NCBI GenBank assembly: GCA_946621045.1
Contig: CAMOOA010000077.1
Location: 1-6,195, forward strand
Length of the DNA: 6,195 nucleotides
Direction: 5' to 3'
DNA from: an uncultured Erysipelotrichaceae bacterium
Lineage (GTDB): Bacteria; Bacillota_I; Bacilli_A; Erysipelotrichales; Erysipelotrichaceae
A program made the position numbers and the translations under genes. The first letter of the stretch is position 1; every line of letters begins with the position of its first letter. The notes under the pieces were generated by a model. That model had not been told where the DNA came from, ran no database searches, and was given only the letters and a program-made list of their open reading frames with translations. Shown one piece after another: positions 598 through 6,118 of this stretch.

Positions 598-2223
598 ATG
601 AGATTCTGGAAACGCCGCAAAGTGATAAAAACGATCAATGAAATGGTTCCGCTTACCCCGGAGAACGTTGACAGTCTGTCGGAGACAATCAGCGGTTTTC
701 TTCAGGAGGTCAAGATGGAGCGCGCCAACCGGATCCGGATCCGGTTCTCGCTGGAGGAGGCAGTGCTTCGCTGGATGGATCATTTCGGAAATGACGCCGT
801 TCTGCATGTGGAAATGAATGTGAACTGGGGACGTCCGACGATTACGTTCACGATGCCGGGAGAACAGTACAATCCGCTGGTAAGCAGCGAAAATGATCTC
901 GGCGACTGGGCGGAGAACCTTTACAGCGGATTAAGCATGTCGCCGGTGTACAACTACCGCAAGGGATTCAATGTCCTGCAGTTAAAGCTTCCGAACCTCA
1001 ACCGCAACCCGGCGCTGGAGCTGATGCTGTCGGTCATGATCGGAGCGCTGATCGGCGTGCTCGGCAAGGCGCTTCTTCCCGAGACCGTGCGCTCGGTTGT
1101 GCTGAGCACGGTCCTTGGCCCGATTGAAGGCGTGTTCCTGCGGATTCTGAACGCATCTTCCGGTCCGGTCATCTTCCTTTCCGTCATGACTGCGATCTGC
1201 GGAATCGGGATGCTGCCGTCGATCGGCAAAAGCGGCAGGGACATGGTATGGCGCTTTCTCGGACTGACGCTGCTGTCCACTGCGACTGCGGCGGTCATCT
1301 CCTATTTTCTGCTCGGCATGGACCTTACGCCGCTGAGCTTTGACGGGACACAGTTTACAAGCATACTCGATTTCTTCCTCGGCATGATACCGAGCGATAT
1401 CCTCACGCCGTTTATCGAAGGAAACTCGCCGCAGCTGATCGCACTGGCGATCATTATCGGCAATGCACTGATCATCAATTCCGCCCAGACCGTGGGTCTC
1501 AGGGCCGTCGTGGAACAGGCGGATTCCATCGGCCTGACCATTGCCGGCTGGGTCAGCAACCTTACGCCGCTGTTTGTTGCGACACTGCTGATCCTCGGCA
1601 TCTGGAACGGATCGGTACAGATCATTACCGGACTCTGGCGTCCGTTTCTGATTTATTTCGTCATCAGCGCCCTCGGACTGTATCTGCGGTTAAGGTCCGT
1701 TTCCCGGCGATATGATGTGCCGGTGAAACTTCTGTTAACCAAGATGAAGGATTCATTCCGGGCTGCGTTTGTCAACGCATCCGTGGATGCCGCAATCGGC
1801 GACAGCCAGATTCTCTGCGAGAAGCGCTTCGGCATCAGTAAGAAACTGACAGACTACGCATTTCCGCTCGGCATGGTTGTCTATATGCCCTCCGGCTGTA
1901 TTGCCTGCATGATCGTCACCTTATACGCAGCCCATGTGTATGACGTGCCCGTTACTCCGGTATGGCTTATCATTGCGGTGGTGCTCACTGCGGCTCTGAT
2001 TGCCGCAACTCCGCCGGTGGCCGGCATCGGTCTGCTTACCTATACCGCGATTTTTGCCCAGCTCGGCATTCCGCGTCAGGCGCTTACCATGGCGATGGTC
2101 GCGGATATCACGCTTGGCTTTGCGGTATCGGCGCTGAATCTTGCGATGCTGCAGCTGGAACTGGTAAATGAAGCGTCGAAAGTGGATCTGCTCGATCAGA
2201 ATATTCTTCGCAAAGCTCGCTGA
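598..2223 (+). CDS. SLC1/SDF-type transporter with degenerate N-terminal HATPase domain
   Basis: The 541-residue product has two parts. Residues about 15-132 align by eye with the stand-alone HATPase protein at 3885-4289: an EEAVLRWMDH segment at the N-box (E53, E54, H62), GEQYNPL at the G1 loop (88-94) and a final strand FNVLQLKL. However, the N-box Asn is Arg58, the G1 Asp is Met86 and the G2 glycines are gone, so ATP binding is unlikely. Residues about 138-522 look like the dicarboxylate/amino acid:cation symporter fold (sodium:dicarboxylate symporter family): many membrane spans, FPLGMVVYM in the TM7 position, TPPVAGIGLL in the HP2 position and an Asp503/Asn514 pair in the TM8 position. 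Several Na+- and substrate-binding residues known from GltPh appear replaced, so the substrate is unknown. ATG 598 is the first start after an in-frame stop at 586-588; its ribosome binding site is poor. An ATG at codon 16 is an alternative but has no better site. Confidence 0.85.
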   Translation: MRFWKRRKVIKTINEMVPLTPENVDSLSETISGFLQEVKMERANRIRIRFSLEEAVLRWMDHFGNDAVLHVEMNVNWGRPTITFTMPGEQYNPLVSSENDLGDWAENLYSGLSMSPVYNYRKGFNVLQLKLPNLNRNPALELMLSVMIGALIGVLGKALLPETVRSVVLSTVLGPIEGVFLRILNASSGPVIFLSVMTAICGIGMLPSIGKSGRDMVWRFLGLTLLSTATAAVISYFLLGMDLTPLSFDGTQFTSILDFFLGMIPSDILTPFIEGNSPQLIALAIIIGNALIINSAQTVGLRAVVEQADSIGLTIAGWVSNLTPLFVATLLILGIWNGSVQIITGLWRPFLIYFVISALGLYLRLRSVSRRYDVPVKLLLTKMKDSFRAAFVNASVDAAIGDSQILCEKRFGISKKLTDYAFPLGMVVYMPSGCIACMIVTLYAAHVYDVPVTPVWLIIAVVLTAALIAATPPVAGIGLLTYTAIFAQLGIPRQALTMAMVADITLGFAVSALNLAMLQLELVNEASKVDLLDQNILRKAR

Positions 2224-2246
2224 TGGAATCGCTTTCAATTAATATG

Positions 2247-2252
2247 TATAAT
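2247..2252 (+). promoter_or_regulatory. candidate -10 box before the STAS-kinase gene
   Basis: A perfect TATAAT lies in the 69-nt AT-rich gap after the transporter gene. No good -35 is present at the right spacing (TGGAAT at 2224-2229 matches poorly). It may give the four downstream genes separate expression from the transporter, or be chance in an AT-rich gap. Confidence 0.3.
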
Positions 2253-2292
2253 AAAAAGGACGACCCAGTATGTATGAACCGGAGGTGAATGT

Positions 2293-3492
2293 GTGACAGC
2301 TGCTCAGAAAGATGAATGCCGTATCAGTTTTGAAACTGAAGGCAGTAAACTGACCATTGTTCTGGACGGTCAGATCTCCACAGCCAATGCGCCGAATGTC
2401 GAGAATGAAATAAAGGGACATCTTGAAGGCGCAGAGTCGATTGTAATCGATGCAGGAAATCTTACATATATCTCCAGTGCCGGTCTGCGTATTCTGCTTC
2501 GCATGAAGAAAGCGGTGGATGACGTAACCGTAATCAATGTTGCGCCGGAAGTATATGATATCTTTGAAGTCACCGGCTTTACGGAAATGCTGAATATCCG
2601 CAGGGCATTCCGCCATCTCTCCGTCAAGGGATGCGAGGTGATCGGCGAAGGCGCCAACGGCATCGTATACCGCTATGATGAAGATACGATCGTCAAGGTA
2701 TTCCGCAACCCGGATTCCCTGGATGAAATCGAACGTGAGCGGGAACTTGCCCGTACGGCATTTGTGCTTGGCGTGCCAACTGCGATTTCATATGATATCG
2801 TACAGGTAGACGGAGGTCTCTACGGTTCGGTGTTTGAACTGCTGAATGCGGAAAGTTATCATCATCTTCTGAAGGAAGGCAAAAAAACCGTTGATGAGAT
2901 TGCACAGATGAGTGCGGAGCTCCTCAAGGTGGTCCATGCGACAGAGCCGAAACCCGGCGCGCTTCCTTCCCGCAAGCAGATCTCAACCCGGCGCATGATC
3001 AAGATCAAAGAGGCCGGCATCATGCCCGACGAGGAATTTGAACGCCTCAACGTCCTGGTCGATGCGATACCGGACGAGACACATATGCTGCATGGGGATT
3101 TTCACATCAAGAATGTTATGATTCAGAATGGGGAAAGTCTTCTGATCGACATGGATACGCTCTGTGTCGGAAATACGGTATATGAACTGGCAGGCATGTA
3201 TCTGCCGTATATCGGATTTGCAAAGATCGATCCTGAAGATACGATGCGTTTCTTCGGGCTCCGTCCGGAAGTGACGGAGGACCTCTACAACCGCATCATG
3301 GGCTACTACTTTGAGCAGCCGGATGAACGGGAACAGGCAAAGAAAAAAGCGATTGTGCTTGCATGTGCGCGGATGATGTACTACTGTGCGGTCATGAAGC
3401 ATGTTAATGAATCAAACAGAGACGCAATCATTGCGATGTGCCGGGAGAACTTCAACAGACTTCTGCCGGAACTCGGCGAACTTGCGATTTGA
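2293..3492 (+). CDS. STAS domain fused to APH-type kinase/phosphotransferase
   Basis: The 399-residue product is soluble. Residues about 9-105 form a STAS domain of the anti-sigma-factor-antagonist type with the motif YISSAGLR at 59-66; S61/S62 sit where SpoIIAA and RsbV are phosphorylated. Residues about 113-395 form a protein-kinase-like/aminoglycoside-phosphotransferase (APH) fold: glycine loop GEGANGIVY (118-126), Lys135 in IVKVF, the catalytic loop HGDFHIKN (267-274, D269 and N274) and the metal-binding IDMD (285-288). All catalytic landmarks are present, so it is probably active, but its substrate is unknown; a protein or small-molecule target are both possible, and antibiotic resistance should not be assumed. 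The GTG at 2293 is the start because GGAGG at 2281-2285 lies 7 nt upstream. It is followed after 17 nt by a second STAS gene, and the two STAS domains are clear paralogues. Confidence 0.88.
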   Translation: MTAAQKDECRISFETEGSKLTIVLDGQISTANAPNVENEIKGHLEGAESIVIDAGNLTYISSAGLRILLRMKKAVDDVTVINVAPEVYDIFEVTGFTEMLNIRRAFRHLSVKGCEVIGEGANGIVYRYDEDTIVKVFRNPDSLDEIERERELARTAFVLGVPTAISYDIVQVDGGLYGSVFELLNAESYHHLLKEGKKTVDEIAQMSAELLKVVHATEPKPGALPSRKQISTRRMIKIKEAGIMPDEEFERLNVLVDAIPDETHMLHGDFHIKNVMIQNGESLLIDMDTLCVGNTVYELAGMYLPYIGFAKIDPEDTMRFFGLRPEVTEDLYNRIMGYYFEQPDEREQAKKKAIVLACARMMYYCAVMKHVNESNRDAIIAMCRENFNRLLPELGELAI

Positions 3493-3509
3493 ACAGGAGG
3501 GTTATAGAT

Positions 3510-3809
3510 ATGGAAATCAAGATGGACAAAAACGGAAACGAGCTCACAGTATCGCTGGCAGGAAGACTCGATACAATGACATCTCCCCAGCTCGAAGAGG
3601 AACTTCAGAAGGAACTGGACAGTGTCGACAATCTGACATTTGATTTCAAGGACCTTGAATACATTTCATCGGCAGGACTTCGTGTACTTCTTTCCACACA
3701 GAAGCACATGATGAAGAAGGGCGAGATGAAGGTGATCAATGTCAGCGACACCATTATGGAGATTTTCAACGTTACCGGTTTCTCTGACATCATGAATGTC
3801 AGCGCATAA
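3510..3809 (+). CDS. STAS-domain protein, anti-sigma factor antagonist type
   Basis: The 99-residue product is a single complete STAS domain, the usual length for SpoIIAA/RsbV-type proteins. The signature is YISSAGLR at 51-58, with S53/S54 at the position phosphorylated in that family, followed by VINV and the helix IFNVTGFSDIMNV at the end. In known systems the unphosphorylated form binds a HATPase-type kinase and the phosphorylated form is released. The likely partners here are the HATPase encoded next door and perhaps the HATPase domains on the transporters (inference). ATG 3510 has a strong AGGAGG at 3495-3500, 9 nt upstream, and longer frames reaching back into the previous gene lack such support. 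It is closely related to the STAS half of the preceding protein (shared YISSAGLR, VINV, IF.VTGF), suggesting local duplication. Confidence 0.93.
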   Translation: MEIKMDKNGNELTVSLAGRLDTMTSPQLEEELQKELDSVDNLTFDFKDLEYISSAGLRVLLSTQKHMMKKGEMKVINVSDTIMEIFNVTGFSDIMNVSA

Positions 3810-3826
3810 GTTCTGACATGCCGCTG

Positions 3827-3844
3827 CCCGCAGAAGAATGCGGG
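3827..3844 (+). promoter_or_regulatory. hairpin in the STAS-HATPase gap
   Basis: CCCGCA (3827-3832) pairs with TGCGGG (3839-3844) around a GAAGAA loop. No T run follows, so it is not a standard terminator. It may be a processing or stability element that adjusts the ratio of STAS to HATPase protein. A similar CCCGTA/TACGGG stem lies in the next gap. Confidence 0.4.
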
Positions 3845-3867
3845 AGAAACAGATGAAATTCTCAGTG

Positions 3868-3887
3868 AAAGGAGGGGAGGCAGCTTG
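3868..3887 (+). promoter_or_regulatory. strong ribosome binding site deciding a TTG start
   Basis: A purine run AAAGGAGGGGAGG (3868-3880) precedes TTG 3885-3887. The GGAGG at 3871-3875 is 9 nt from the TTG. No in-frame ATG or GTG lies nearby upstream, and the next in-frame ATG would delete part of the HATPase fold. The TTG is therefore taken as the start. Confidence 0.7.
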
Positions 3888-4289
3888 GTAGAGATTGAAC
3901 TGGAAGCGACGATAAGTAATCTCGCTGCAGCAACAGAATTTGTGACAAAGCAGCTGGAAGGCGTTGAGTGCTCCATGGGCACGCAGATGCAGATCGAACT
4001 GGCTGTCGACGAAATTTTCACGAACATTTGCATGTATGCATATGCGCCGAAGACCGGAAATGCGGTCATCTCGGTTGATACCGACACTCCGGGTATCGTG
4101 ACCCTGAAGTTCAGCGATACCGGCATTCCCTACAACCCTCTTGAAAAGGAGGACCCGGATACCACACTGTCTGCGTCGGAACGGAAGATCGGCGGACTGG
4201 GTATTTATCTCGTCAAGAAATCCATGGACGGGATGTCCTACGAATATAAAGACGGGCATAACATCCTTACGCTGGTGAAGCGGATATAA
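3885..4289 (+). CDS. HATPase-type ATP-binding protein, RsbW/SpoIIAB-like (anti-sigma/serine kinase)
   Basis: The 134-residue product is a single GHKL/HATPase domain of usual RsbW/SpoIIAB size. Visible motifs are the N-box DEIFTNICMYAY (E43 and N47; the common His is Tyr51), the G1 box SDTGIPYNPL (D78, G80) and the G2 box IGGLGIYLV (102-110, G103, G104, G106). All key residues for ATP and Mg2+ binding are present, so it should be active. Known members phosphorylate the serine of their STAS partner and sequester a sigma factor. No sigma factor is in the window, so the bound target is open; the nearby transporter-linked domains and the two STAS domains are candidates (inference). The start is a TTG at 3885 with a strong purine-rich site. 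Translation initiation from TTG may keep the kinase level below that of the STAS protein. Confidence 0.9.
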   Translation: MVEIELEATISNLAAATEFVTKQLEGVECSMGTQMQIELAVDEIFTNICMYAYAPKTGNAVISVDTDTPGIVTLKFSDTGIPYNPLEKEDPDTTLSASERKIGGLGIYLVKKSMDGMSYEYKDGHNILTLVKRI

Positions 4290-4303
4290 GTCTGATGTTC
4301 TGG

Positions 4304-4322
4304 CCCGTACGGCTGATACGGG
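4304..4322 (+). promoter_or_regulatory. hairpin overlapping the ribosome binding site of the MATE-fusion gene
   Basis: CCCGTA (4304-4309) pairs with TACGGG (4317-4322) around a 7-nt loop, followed by AG and TTTT. The best ribosome binding site for the next gene, GGGAG at 4320-4324, is 9 nt before ATG 4334 and partly inside the 3' arm, so folding would hide it. The short T run also makes a weak attenuator possible. Which applies cannot be told from the sequence. Confidence 0.42.
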
Positions 4323-4333
4323 AGTTTTAAAAA

Positions 4334-6118
4334 ATGAATAGTGCATTGAAAACAGGTTCGAATGACAAGATCATTTCGAAACTCTTTTTCCGGCTTCTGC
4401 CGGTACAGATTCTGCTTGTGGGTATTCCGTCGCTGAACGGAATCATCTCCAGCCTGTTTGCGAGCAACCTGCTCGGCGAAAATGCAATGACGGCGATTGG
4501 AATGTATGCTCCAATCGTTCAGTTTATTACGGCCATCAGTAATGTTTTCCTTGGCGGATCACAGATCCTCTGCGGGAAATACATGGGCGGCAACCAGGTG
4601 GAACGCACACAGGAAATCTTTTCACTGAACATCACCGCGGTAAGTATTACCGCGGTTATTGCGTCTGTCCTGATGGCAGCCGCCGGTGCGCTTCATCTGA
4701 CCGGATTCATGAATCCCGATCCGGGCGTCATTGAGATGTTCAACCGCTATCTGATCGGCTGTGCGATCGGTCTTCTGCCGATGATGCTCGGCAGTCAGCT
4801 GTCCGCCTTCCTGTCACTGGAACTGGAAGGTTCCCGCTCCACAGTCGCAACAGCGCTCTTTGTCGTAACCAATCTGCTGCTGACCTGGCTCTTTGTCGGC
4901 GTCCTGCATATGGAGGCATTCGGTCTTGCGCTTGCGGCGTCAATCGGATACTGGGTATATCTGATTGTGGAACTGCTCTATTACTTCTCCGGAAAATCAT
5001 TGCTCAAGCTGAAGATGGTGAAGTTCCGCCTGCCGGATCTTTCCGATATCATCCTGATCGGTTTTCCCGGCGCCACTACGGCCCTGTATCTTACGATTCG
5101 CAGATTTGTACTGAACGGAATGATCACGCGATATGTCGGAAATGCAGGAATGTCTGCCTTTACGGCAAGCGATACACTGCTTGCGATATTCTGGGCGCTG
5201 CCGCTCGGCATGGCAAATGTCTGCCGGATGCTGATGAGCGTCAGTTACGGCGAAGAAGACCGGCAGTCCCTGAAGGATGTCTTTAAAACGATGGTCGGCC
5301 GCTGCCTGCTGATTCAGACTGTGTTTATGGCAGTACTGATTCTGCTGGCTGTACCGTTTACCCGGCTGTTTATCCGCGATACTGCGGATCCGGTGTATCA
5401 GATGACAATTACAGCCTTCCGGCTTATGCCGATTACCATGCCGCTGGCCCTGGTCTGTCAGGCATGGCTGAACTACGGCCAGGTATCCCGGAAACAGGTG
5501 CTCACGCATTCACTGGCGCTGATTGACGGCATGCTGTGTCCGTGCCTTGCAATGCTGGCACTGGTGCCGGCCCTTGGCATGAACGGCATCTACTTTGCGC
5601 TGATCCTCAACGGCTTCGTCACGGTGATCTATCCGGTAATCTATTCGATTGTCTTCAACCGGAAGATACCGACGAATCTCGATCAGCTTCTGATGATTCC
5701 GGACAGCTTCGGTGCCCCTGAGAGAGACCGGCTTGATATTTCCCTGCACAGCGATGAAGAGGTTGTGAACATTGCCGAGCGGGTTCAGAAGTTCTGTATT
5801 GAGAAGGGACTGGAGGAACGCAAAGCCTATCTCTCCGGTCTGTTTCTGGAAGAAATGGCCGGCAATATTGTCGACCACGGCTTTACCAAAGACAAAAAAG
5901 AACACTCGGTCGATGTCCGTGTTGTATGTAAAGACGGCGATGTGATTCTCCGCCTGAAGGATGACTGTATTCCGTTTGATCCGAAACAGCGTGCGGACAT
6001 TATTGATCCGGATGATATCACAAAGAACATCGGCATCCGGATGGTATACTCCATGGCGAAGGATATCACCTATCAGAATATTCTGGGTCTCAATGTACTG
6101 ACGATCCGGATTCCCTGA
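4334..6118 (+). CDS. MATE-family transporter with C-terminal HATPase domain
   Basis: The 594-residue product is longer than ordinary MATE transporters (about 450). Residues about 12-445 look like the MATE fold: two halves of about six membrane spans each, with a charged linker near 220-235, where multidrug/toxin or metabolite antiport driven by Na+ or H+ is the family role. Residues about 463-594 are cytoplasmic and HATPase-like: N-box LEEMAGNIVDH (E506, E507, N511, H515), G1 loop DDCIPFDP (D543; the usual Gly is C545), a partial G2 at NIGIRMV (565-571) and a final strand NVLTIRI. This domain resembles the stand-alone HATPase encoded just upstream, so ATP binding is plausible. By inference it could be controlled by binding or phosphorylating the STAS proteins. 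ATG 4334 is preceded by GGGAG. The substrate cannot be told. Confidence 0.88.
   Translation: MNSALKTGSNDKIISKLFFRLLPVQILLVGIPSLNGIISSLFASNLLGENAMTAIGMYAPIVQFITAISNVFLGGSQILCGKYMGGNQVERTQEIFSLNITAVSITAVIASVLMAAAGALHLTGFMNPDPGVIEMFNRYLIGCAIGLLPMMLGSQLSAFLSLELEGSRSTVATALFVVTNLLLTWLFVGVLHMEAFGLALAASIGYWVYLIVELLYYFSGKSLLKLKMVKFRLPDLSDIILIGFPGATTALYLTIRRFVLNGMITRYVGNAGMSAFTASDTLLAIFWALPLGMANVCRMLMSVSYGEEDRQSLKDVFKTMVGRCLLIQTVFMAVLILLAVPFTRLFIRDTADPVYQMTITAFRLMPITMPLALVCQAWLNYGQVSRKQVLTHSLALIDGMLCPCLAMLALVPALGMNGIYFALILNGFVTVIYPVIYSIVFNRKIPTNLDQLLMIPDSFGAPERDRLDISLHSDEEVVNIAERVQKFCIEKGLEERKAYLSGLFLEEMAGNIVDHGFTKDKKEHSVDVRVVCKDGDVILRLKDDCIPFDPKQRADIIDPDDITKNIGIRMVYSMAKDITYQNILGLNVLTIRIP

Follow-up and report, generated by a model that had tools for sequence, protein, structure and literature searches.

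We describe a predicted partner switch in a 6,195-nucleotide stretch of DNA from an uncultured Erysipelotrichaceae bacterium (contig CAMOOA010000077.1; the whole stretch is hereafter called the window). Five consecutive plus-strand genes, A to E (positions 598-6118 in the open reading frame list), encode STAS proteins, a SpoIIAB/RsbW-like HATPase and two transporters that each carry an HATPase-like domain. We propose that the locus is a partner switch without an adjacent sigma factor, and that its likely targets are the two transporters, reached by docking of STAS proteins on their pseudo-HATPase domains. We put the chance of this reading just short of even. An initial annotation of the window had described the same five genes, and its domain content, strand and coordinates agree with the open reading frames, Pfam and profile-profile comparison.

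Gene content of the locus

Gene D (3885-4289, plus strand, 134 residues) encodes a stand-alone SpoIIAB/RsbW-like HATPase, the predicted kinase of the switch. It starts with a TTG codon preceded by a purine-rich site. The protein matches HATPase_c_2 in Pfam (5.4e-20) and, in a profile search, RsbW (6m36) at 5.5e-7. It keeps E43, N47, D78, G80, R100 and GGLG; its N, D and G boxes are intact and its lid is full-length. Its scores against the NCBIfam models spIIAB (27.8 bits, cut-off 135) and RsbW (25.4 bits, cut-off 145) are far below the cut-offs.

Two proteins contain a STAS domain, and the ISSAGLR loop is present in both. Gene C (3510-3809, plus strand, 99 residues from an ATG; a longer form could start at a GTG at 3438) encodes a stand-alone, SpoIIAA/RsbV-like STAS protein, supported by Pfam STAS (1.1e-15) and by TIGR00377 (73.9 bits, over the cut-off of 53.45). 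Gene B (2293-3492, plus strand, 399 residues) joins a STAS domain (residues ~14-104; Pfam 14-104, 3.2e-13) to an APH-type kinase domain (residues ~110-399; Pfam 116-303, 2.4e-15). The APH part resembles TIGR02172 (3.3e-29, 102.3 bits, short of the cut-off of 228.2), and gene B adds the STAS domain to it. S61 and S62, K135, E149, HGD.H.KN and DMD are invariant across 13 aligned STAS-APH proteins, and so is the STAS loop serine. The catalytic motifs expected of an APH domain are intact in gene B.

The transporter genes lie on either side of this core. Gene A (598-2223, plus strand, 541 residues) encodes an SDF-type transporter, of the dicarboxylate/amino acid:cation symporter family (residues ~139-541; Pfam SDF 141-515, 4.6e-35, above the gathering score) preceded by a degenerate HATPase domain (residues ~12-132). 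Gene E (4334-6118, plus strand, 594 residues) encodes a MATE-type transporter (residues ~10-445; Pfam MatE 2.9e-19, 69.8 bits against a gathering score of 24.9) followed by an HATPase-like domain (residues ~463-594). No NCBIfam model listed comes near its cut-off with either transporter part. A Pfam scan of six window proteins showed SDF and MatE as the only membrane families and gave no SulP membrane domain.

The intergenic gaps A-B, B-C, C-D and D-E measure 69, 17, 75 and 44 bases. Four plus-strand terminator-like sites were predicted, none of them inside these gaps. Given the short gaps (17-75 bases) and the absence of such sites from them, genes A to E likely form one operon. A small gene on the same strand, with a DUF1653 match (4.5e-31), lies upstream of the module at 226-456.

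HATPase-like domains of the two transporters

The front part of gene A is a divergent member of its fold. Pfam and NCBIfam reported no N-terminal domain on the full-length protein; scanned alone, the domain matched HATPase_c_2 with an E value of 0.06 (13.8 bits against a gathering score of 27.4). Eleven of 20 homologous domains match the same family at E <= 1, the best at 1.7e-4. Profile-profile comparison (hhalign) of the gene A domain gave a probability of 96-97% with the stand-alone HATPases and 97% with the MATE-borne domain, against 0.1% with STAS as a negative control. A profile search of the PDB with the domain returned nothing significant; RsbW appeared at E 1.3, ranked below unrelated chains. 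The gene E domain is recognized by Pfam directly (HATPase_c_2, residues 475-592, 2.9e-8, 34.2 bits against 27.4).

In the AlphaFold model of gene A (mean predicted local distance difference test score, pLDDT, 82.9), the N-terminal domain has the order strand-helix-helix-strand-strand-helix-strand-strand (E-H-H-E-E-H-E-E). The MATE-borne domain in the gene E model shares this order and has one extra short helix. The Foldseek and VIA lists for the gene A model were occupied by matches to the transporter part, as was the Foldseek list for the gene E model, where MATE structures came first. Since the transporter parts fill these lists, fold support for the fused domains comes from the secondary-structure order only. 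From the profiles and the model, we regard the front part of gene A as a degenerate HATPase with high, although not complete, confidence.

An alignment of HATPase domains revealed how the transporter-borne forms are altered. It contained 24 non-transporter domains (13 stand-alone, 6 fused to a PP2C-type phosphatase and 5 to APH), 176 MATE-borne and 84 SDF-borne domains; many sequences are closely related and the counts are not independent. All 24 non-transporter domains have the N-box Glu and Asn, and 23 have the D-box Asp. They keep the GG.G box and the lid arginine, and their lid (the P85-G106 stretch) is 22 residues long in every case. In gene A, the domain (598-1011, plus strand) keeps the N-box Glu, has Arg in place of the N-box Asn and a hydrophobic residue in place of the D-box Asp, and its lid is much shortened. 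These changes are nearly fixed among SDF-borne domains: Glu is kept in 83/84, Asn is replaced by Arg in 80/84 and Asp by Leu in 64/84, the lid arginine is absent, and the P85-G106 stretch has 11-15 residues instead of 22. Inspection by eye showed that the N-box Asn is also missing in the distant SDF fusions L115, L215, L216, L218, L234 and L235 (L and G numbers are our handles for loci and genomes).

The MATE-borne domains are altered differently. The gene E domain (5714-6115, plus strand) retains Glu, Asn, Asp and one Gly of the ATP site; the D-box Gly is replaced by Cys, the GG pair and the lid arginine are lost, and the lid is shortened. The same pattern is seen in the family (Glu 176/176, Asn 172/176, Asp 176/176, Gly to Cys 173/176). 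Four lid positions are gapped in at least 97% of the sequences, and the P85-G106 stretch has a median of 18 residues (range 6-21) against 22. These changes suggest that both fused domains are HATPase folds unlikely to work as kinases, the SDF-borne one more clearly than the MATE-borne one, which may still bind nucleotide. The initial annotation had called both domains HATPase-like. Their presence was confirmed, but they do not look like ordinary kinases: with a shortened lid and lost motif residues, they are altered and receiver-like.

The Glu kept in both families may be informative. In a model of SypA-SypE from Vibrio fischeri, the kinase glutamate faces the STAS serine (PMC10120452). By analogy, the Glu of the fused domains may be equivalent to the SypE glutamate, which would fit a retained docking face. 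The ratio of nonsynonymous to synonymous substitution rates (dN/dS) of the SDF-borne domain is 0.07 between the window and L001 and 0.17 between the window and L003, about the same as that of the transporter part (0.07 and 0.18). These low ratios indicate that the altered domain is kept by selection.

Recurrence and linkage in related genomes

The nearest named relative is a Solobacterium metagenome-assembled genome from roe deer (L001), with 92% identity in gene A. Genes A to E occur in identical order in L001 and L003, and also in L002, where the contig end cuts gene E. The earlier view that chance domain mixing is an unlikely origin of the fusions is borne out by this recurrence in L001 and L003 and by the low dN/dS of the fused domain. 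A second SDF-like gene lies upstream of the module in L003 (2-1387, 461 residues) and in L001 (3-221, cut). The front of the L003 protein receives the label of the SDF-type N-terminal domain at a permissive cut-off and not at a stricter one.

Transporter-borne HATPase domains are not rare. A search with the gene A protein gave 73 matches, 62 of which cover at least 78% at E < 1e-23. The gene E protein gave 1071 matches, and the best 120 of the 1071 all carry MATE and HATPase domains. At E <= 1e-60, only 2 of 392 genomes from the phylum of G001 matched the MATE fusion, G001 being one of them.

A good part of the SDF fusions are physically linked to other module genes. Our genome collection holds 24 SDF-fusion loci, 15 with a module gene on the fetched piece and 13 with one within 1.5 kb. 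With nine drawn loci included, a module gene lies within 1.5 kb of 15/33 SDF fusions and 0/20 plain SDF genes (p 1.7e-4); in the drawn set alone, the count is 2/9 (p 0.09). Among the 33 loci, L213 duplicates L008, and a contig end truncates L018, L024 and L217. For MATE fusions, at least two module genes within ~7 kb were seen at 8/47 loci and at 0/36 plain MATE loci (p 0.008); this count leaves out 8 of 55 loci (L103, L111 and L140-L145), which come from draw centres or SDF-found genomes. The linkage across genomes anticipated for the five genes thus held for part of the SDF fusions and for the five-gene order in L001 and L003, but not for most MATE fusions, which are unlinked.

Several neighbouring arrangements were also observed. 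STAS, APH and HATPase domains form a single chain of 528-539 residues at L126:8795-10384, L127:5381-6967, L128:8766-10361, L131:1712-3331 and L132:1711-3330; of these five, L126 is the one whose domains were shown by Pfam. Such a chain unites the substrate of the switch, a kinase fold and the HATPase. In L004, an ABC exporter pair (3538-7075) separates the SDF fusion from STAS-APH and adds a third type of transporter to the locus. In L010, STAS-APH and the SDF fusion have a GGDEF gene (1837-3249) immediately upstream.

Co-occurrence across genomes

MATE fusions and STAS-APH proteins tend to occur in the same genomes. Across three drawn orders (148, 246 and 245 genomes), 12, 17 and 11 genomes matched the MATE fusion and 13, 19 and 29 matched STAS-APH, which amounts to 40/639 and 61/639. 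STAS-APH is matched in 33 of the 40 MATE-fusion genomes, namely 12/12, 10/17 and 11/11 in the three orders (Fisher p 9e-17, 8e-9 and 9e-12, values that shared ancestry makes too small). Without the draw centres G001 and G007, p is 1e-15 and 6e-8; the third centre, G003, has neither gene. Some weak rows were kept: the MATE fusion of G014 is a partial match with one stop, and STAS-APH in G196, G207 and G360 is matched in the APH part only. A recount without G014 (11/11, p 6e-15) and one that requires the STAS part (9/17, p 3e-8) leave the p values small, so the weakest rows do not carry the result. G011 and G050, which have plain MATE only, were left out, as was the SDF-found G003 from the negatives of the SDF test. 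Between 3 and 10 candidates were scored per genome; some matches may have been missed for this reason or because a genome is incomplete.

At 55% identity, the MATE fusions from 48 loci group into 20 clusters, of which 17 are confined to STAS-APH genomes, 2 are confined to genomes that lack STAS-APH and 1 occurs in both kinds. Given this spread, one recent clade does not explain the co-occurrence. Among these fusions, L104, L105 and L112 are linked to L092 and L093 by at least 55% identity across genomes from two orders, which hints at horizontal transfer. STAS-APH was also matched in 20 of 24 SDF-fusion genomes. The co-occurrence check proposed in the initial annotation therefore came out in favour of an association of STAS-APH with the MATE fusion but, in the drawn sample, not with the SDF fusion (counts below).

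Phosphatases and sigma factors

A SpoIIE-type phosphatase is encoded on the same piece as module genes in relatives, among others L007, L014, L019, L023, L126, L127, L131, L132, L135, L141 and L212. In L007, L014, L019 and L023, the added protein is a SpoIIE-HATPase protein with a long N-terminal part; in L212, the phosphatase stands in a row with the SDF fusion, STAS and HATPase. The phosphatase of the closest genome tested, G001, is a 1099-residue Reg_prop/Y_Y_Y-SpoIIE protein on another contig than the module. Proteins with SpoIIE phosphatase ends are encoded at L157:230-3529 (1099 residues) and L149:571-3831 (1086 residues), a few kb from a plain MATE gene. These two genes belong to the Solobacterium genomes G001 and G002, both of which hold the whole module, and Reg_prop/Y_Y_Y was seen in the L157 protein. 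Large neighbours of solo MATE fusions were considered as hidden phosphatases and dropped after the first 60 residues of about two dozen were read by eye.

Among the matches listed for 25 genomes that carry module genes, no Sigma70_r2 gene lies within 10 kb of a known STAS-APH, SDF-fusion or MATE-fusion place. The search gave 198 matches, those weaker than ~4e-10 being outside the ones listed. The nearest sigma gene among those listed is ~11 kb from the MATE fusion in G160. As a positive control, a sigma gene was found at most ~120 bases from an ordinary stand-alone HATPase in G442, G443, G006, G992 and G008; these five pairs indicate that the search is able to detect such an arrangement. All 25 genomes have sigma factors elsewhere. 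In G001, D and E are the only HATPase_c_2 matches better than 1e-6. The matches listed thus agree with the expectation that no sigma factor would adjoin the module in relatives.

Discussion

Combining these observations, we propose the following scheme. Kinase D would phosphorylate the loop serine of the STAS proteins, gene C and the STAS part of gene B, and a SpoIIE-type phosphatase with a sensor part would take the phosphate off. Unphosphorylated STAS would then leave D and dock on the SDF and MATE transporters at their degenerate HATPase domains, and docking would turn transport up or down. We infer the phosphorylation, the docking, the transport effect and its direction, and what the APH part does, from the features described above. 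A broader version, to which we give somewhat less than an even chance, is that GHKL domains were captured by two unrelated transporter families, were each altered in their own fixed way and became pseudokinase receivers of STAS; one sensor phosphatase could thereby set uptake and efflux jointly, without transcription, in gut Bacillota.

The claim that the switch acts on transport stands in part. In its favour are a real partner-switch core, two separate transporter fusions, the lack of an adjacent sigma factor among the matches listed, the co-occurrence of the MATE fusion and STAS-APH, and the phosphatase in relatives. Several observations weigh on the other side. The phosphatase is absent from the window. 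MATE fusions are mostly unlinked to the module, with a module gene within ~7 kb at 12/47 loci against 4/36 for plain MATE (p 0.08). In one order, 7 of the 17 genomes with the MATE fusion gave no match to STAS-APH, and an eighth, G360, matched in the APH part only; shared ancestry, as mentioned, makes the Fisher p values too small. The SDF fusion, tried as a further gene that tracks STAS-APH, failed in the drawn sample: it is present in 4/40 STAS-APH genomes and 2/39 others, no difference. The MATE-borne domain retains Glu, Asn and Asp. Finally, the STAS domain of gene B carries Ser at a position that in 9 of 13 relatives is the Asp of a G..D motif, and this Asp is absent from the STAS part of STAS-APH in the window, L003, L005 and L014. 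A STAS loop of the G..D type is known for kinase contact (PMC10120452), and the gene B loop may be its equivalent. With the Asp missing in gene B of the window, the STAS domains of B and C may differ in their choice of partner.

The transporters could instead be inputs. The HATPase-like domains of the SDF and MATE proteins would then signal the transport state to the STAS/kinase core, and the output would be elsewhere, for instance at a distant sigma factor or some other target. It is generally known that transporters can act as sensors, sigma factors are present elsewhere in all 25 genomes tested, and the APH domain could be an effector. However, the input role in relatives is filled by SpoIIE phosphatases with extra N-terminal parts, such as the Reg_prop/Y_Y_Y-SpoIIE protein of G001, and the SDF-borne domain is without the motifs needed for STAS phosphorylation. 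We consider an input role unlikely.

Alternatively, the fused domains may heterodimerize with kinase D rather than bind STAS, and thereby tether or inhibit D at the membrane. GHKL anti-sigma kinases are dimers, SpoIIAB and RsbW dimerizing through the β1 strand (PMC10120452), and the fused domains keep the first strand and the overall order. On the other hand, the fetched pieces of L091, L108, L109 and L111 contain a MATE fusion with STAS or a phosphatase and no other HATPase, although the kinase may be elsewhere in the genome. Heterodimerization appears to us quite improbable.

The MATE-borne domain might also be a nucleotide-binding gate on efflux, responding to ATP or, through its conserved Cys, to redox state, independently of STAS. 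The retention of Glu, Asn, Asp and one Gly in 172-176 of 176 domains, the D-box Cys in 173/176, a lid that is shortened and not gone, and the frequent lack of linkage between MATE fusions and the module would all fit such a gate. Yet it does not account for the complete co-occurrence with STAS-APH in two drawn orders, and it leaves unexplained the SDF domain, which has lost Asn and Asp. We see only a slim chance for it. Lastly, the locus could be a conventional sigma-factor switch in which the transporters are passengers and the fusions arose by chance, a reading that we regard as very unlikely. The classical role of STAS and HATPase proteins is tied to sigma factors (PMC8256260), and weaker sigma matches lie outside those listed. 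However, the listed ones include none less than 10 kb from the module in any of the 25 genomes, although in five of these genomes an ordinary kinase does adjoin a sigma gene, and the fusions recur widely under purifying selection.

The proposed transporter-directed switch shares its core with the SpoIIAA-SpoIIAB-SpoIIE and RsbV-RsbW-RsbU systems: a STAS protein with a loop serine, a stand-alone HATPase with intact motifs, and a SpoIIE-family phosphatase, here found in relatives. It differs in that no sigma factor adjoins it among the matches listed, in the extra altered HATPase-like domains on transporters, and in the low scores of gene D against the spIIAB and RsbW models. The locus has the core features of a partner switch, while a sigma partner, which is among the features that define the SpoIIAB/RsbW form, does not appear beside it in those matches. 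Outputs other than sigma factors have been described for GHKL kinase/STAS pairs, with a repressor or an RNase as output in CapK-CapS and VapK-VapS-VapC (PMC13373217). The output proposed here is a pair of transporters instead, and the receiver is a pseudo-HATPase rather than STAS alone. In SypA-SypE, the STAS protein has a further partner beyond the kinase, perhaps bound by the same face (PMC10120452); the accessible part of that account contains no transporter fusion, whereas the locus described here has two.

Direct effects of STAS on transport are also known. In SulP/SLC26 proteins, STAS bears directly on the transporter of which it is a part (PMC8256260), and the STAS domain of MlaFB is part of a complex with an ABC transporter (PMC7367683). 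Here, by contrast, the transporter carries the partner of STAS. Among the titles and abstract openings listed by our literature search, in which coverage of subscription papers and bioRxiv preprints was thin, none dealt with an SDF or MATE transporter fused to an HATPase domain, or with the module.

If the proposed docking of STAS on the transporters is correct, the locus would mirror SLC26, with the STAS partner and not STAS itself built into the transporter. Pseudo-GHKL receiver domains, which are small and probably soluble, would be a new signalling part, and the two-domain make-up of the best 120 of 1071 matches to the MATE protein, with the 62 long matches of 73 to the SDF protein, shows that fusions of this kind are not rare. 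Because 15 of the 24 SDF-fusion loci name a ruminant host in the record title, the switch may bear on nutrient uptake in the ruminant habitat. Partner switching would then extend beyond the control of sigma factors and serve also as a fast, non-transcriptional gate on membrane transport.

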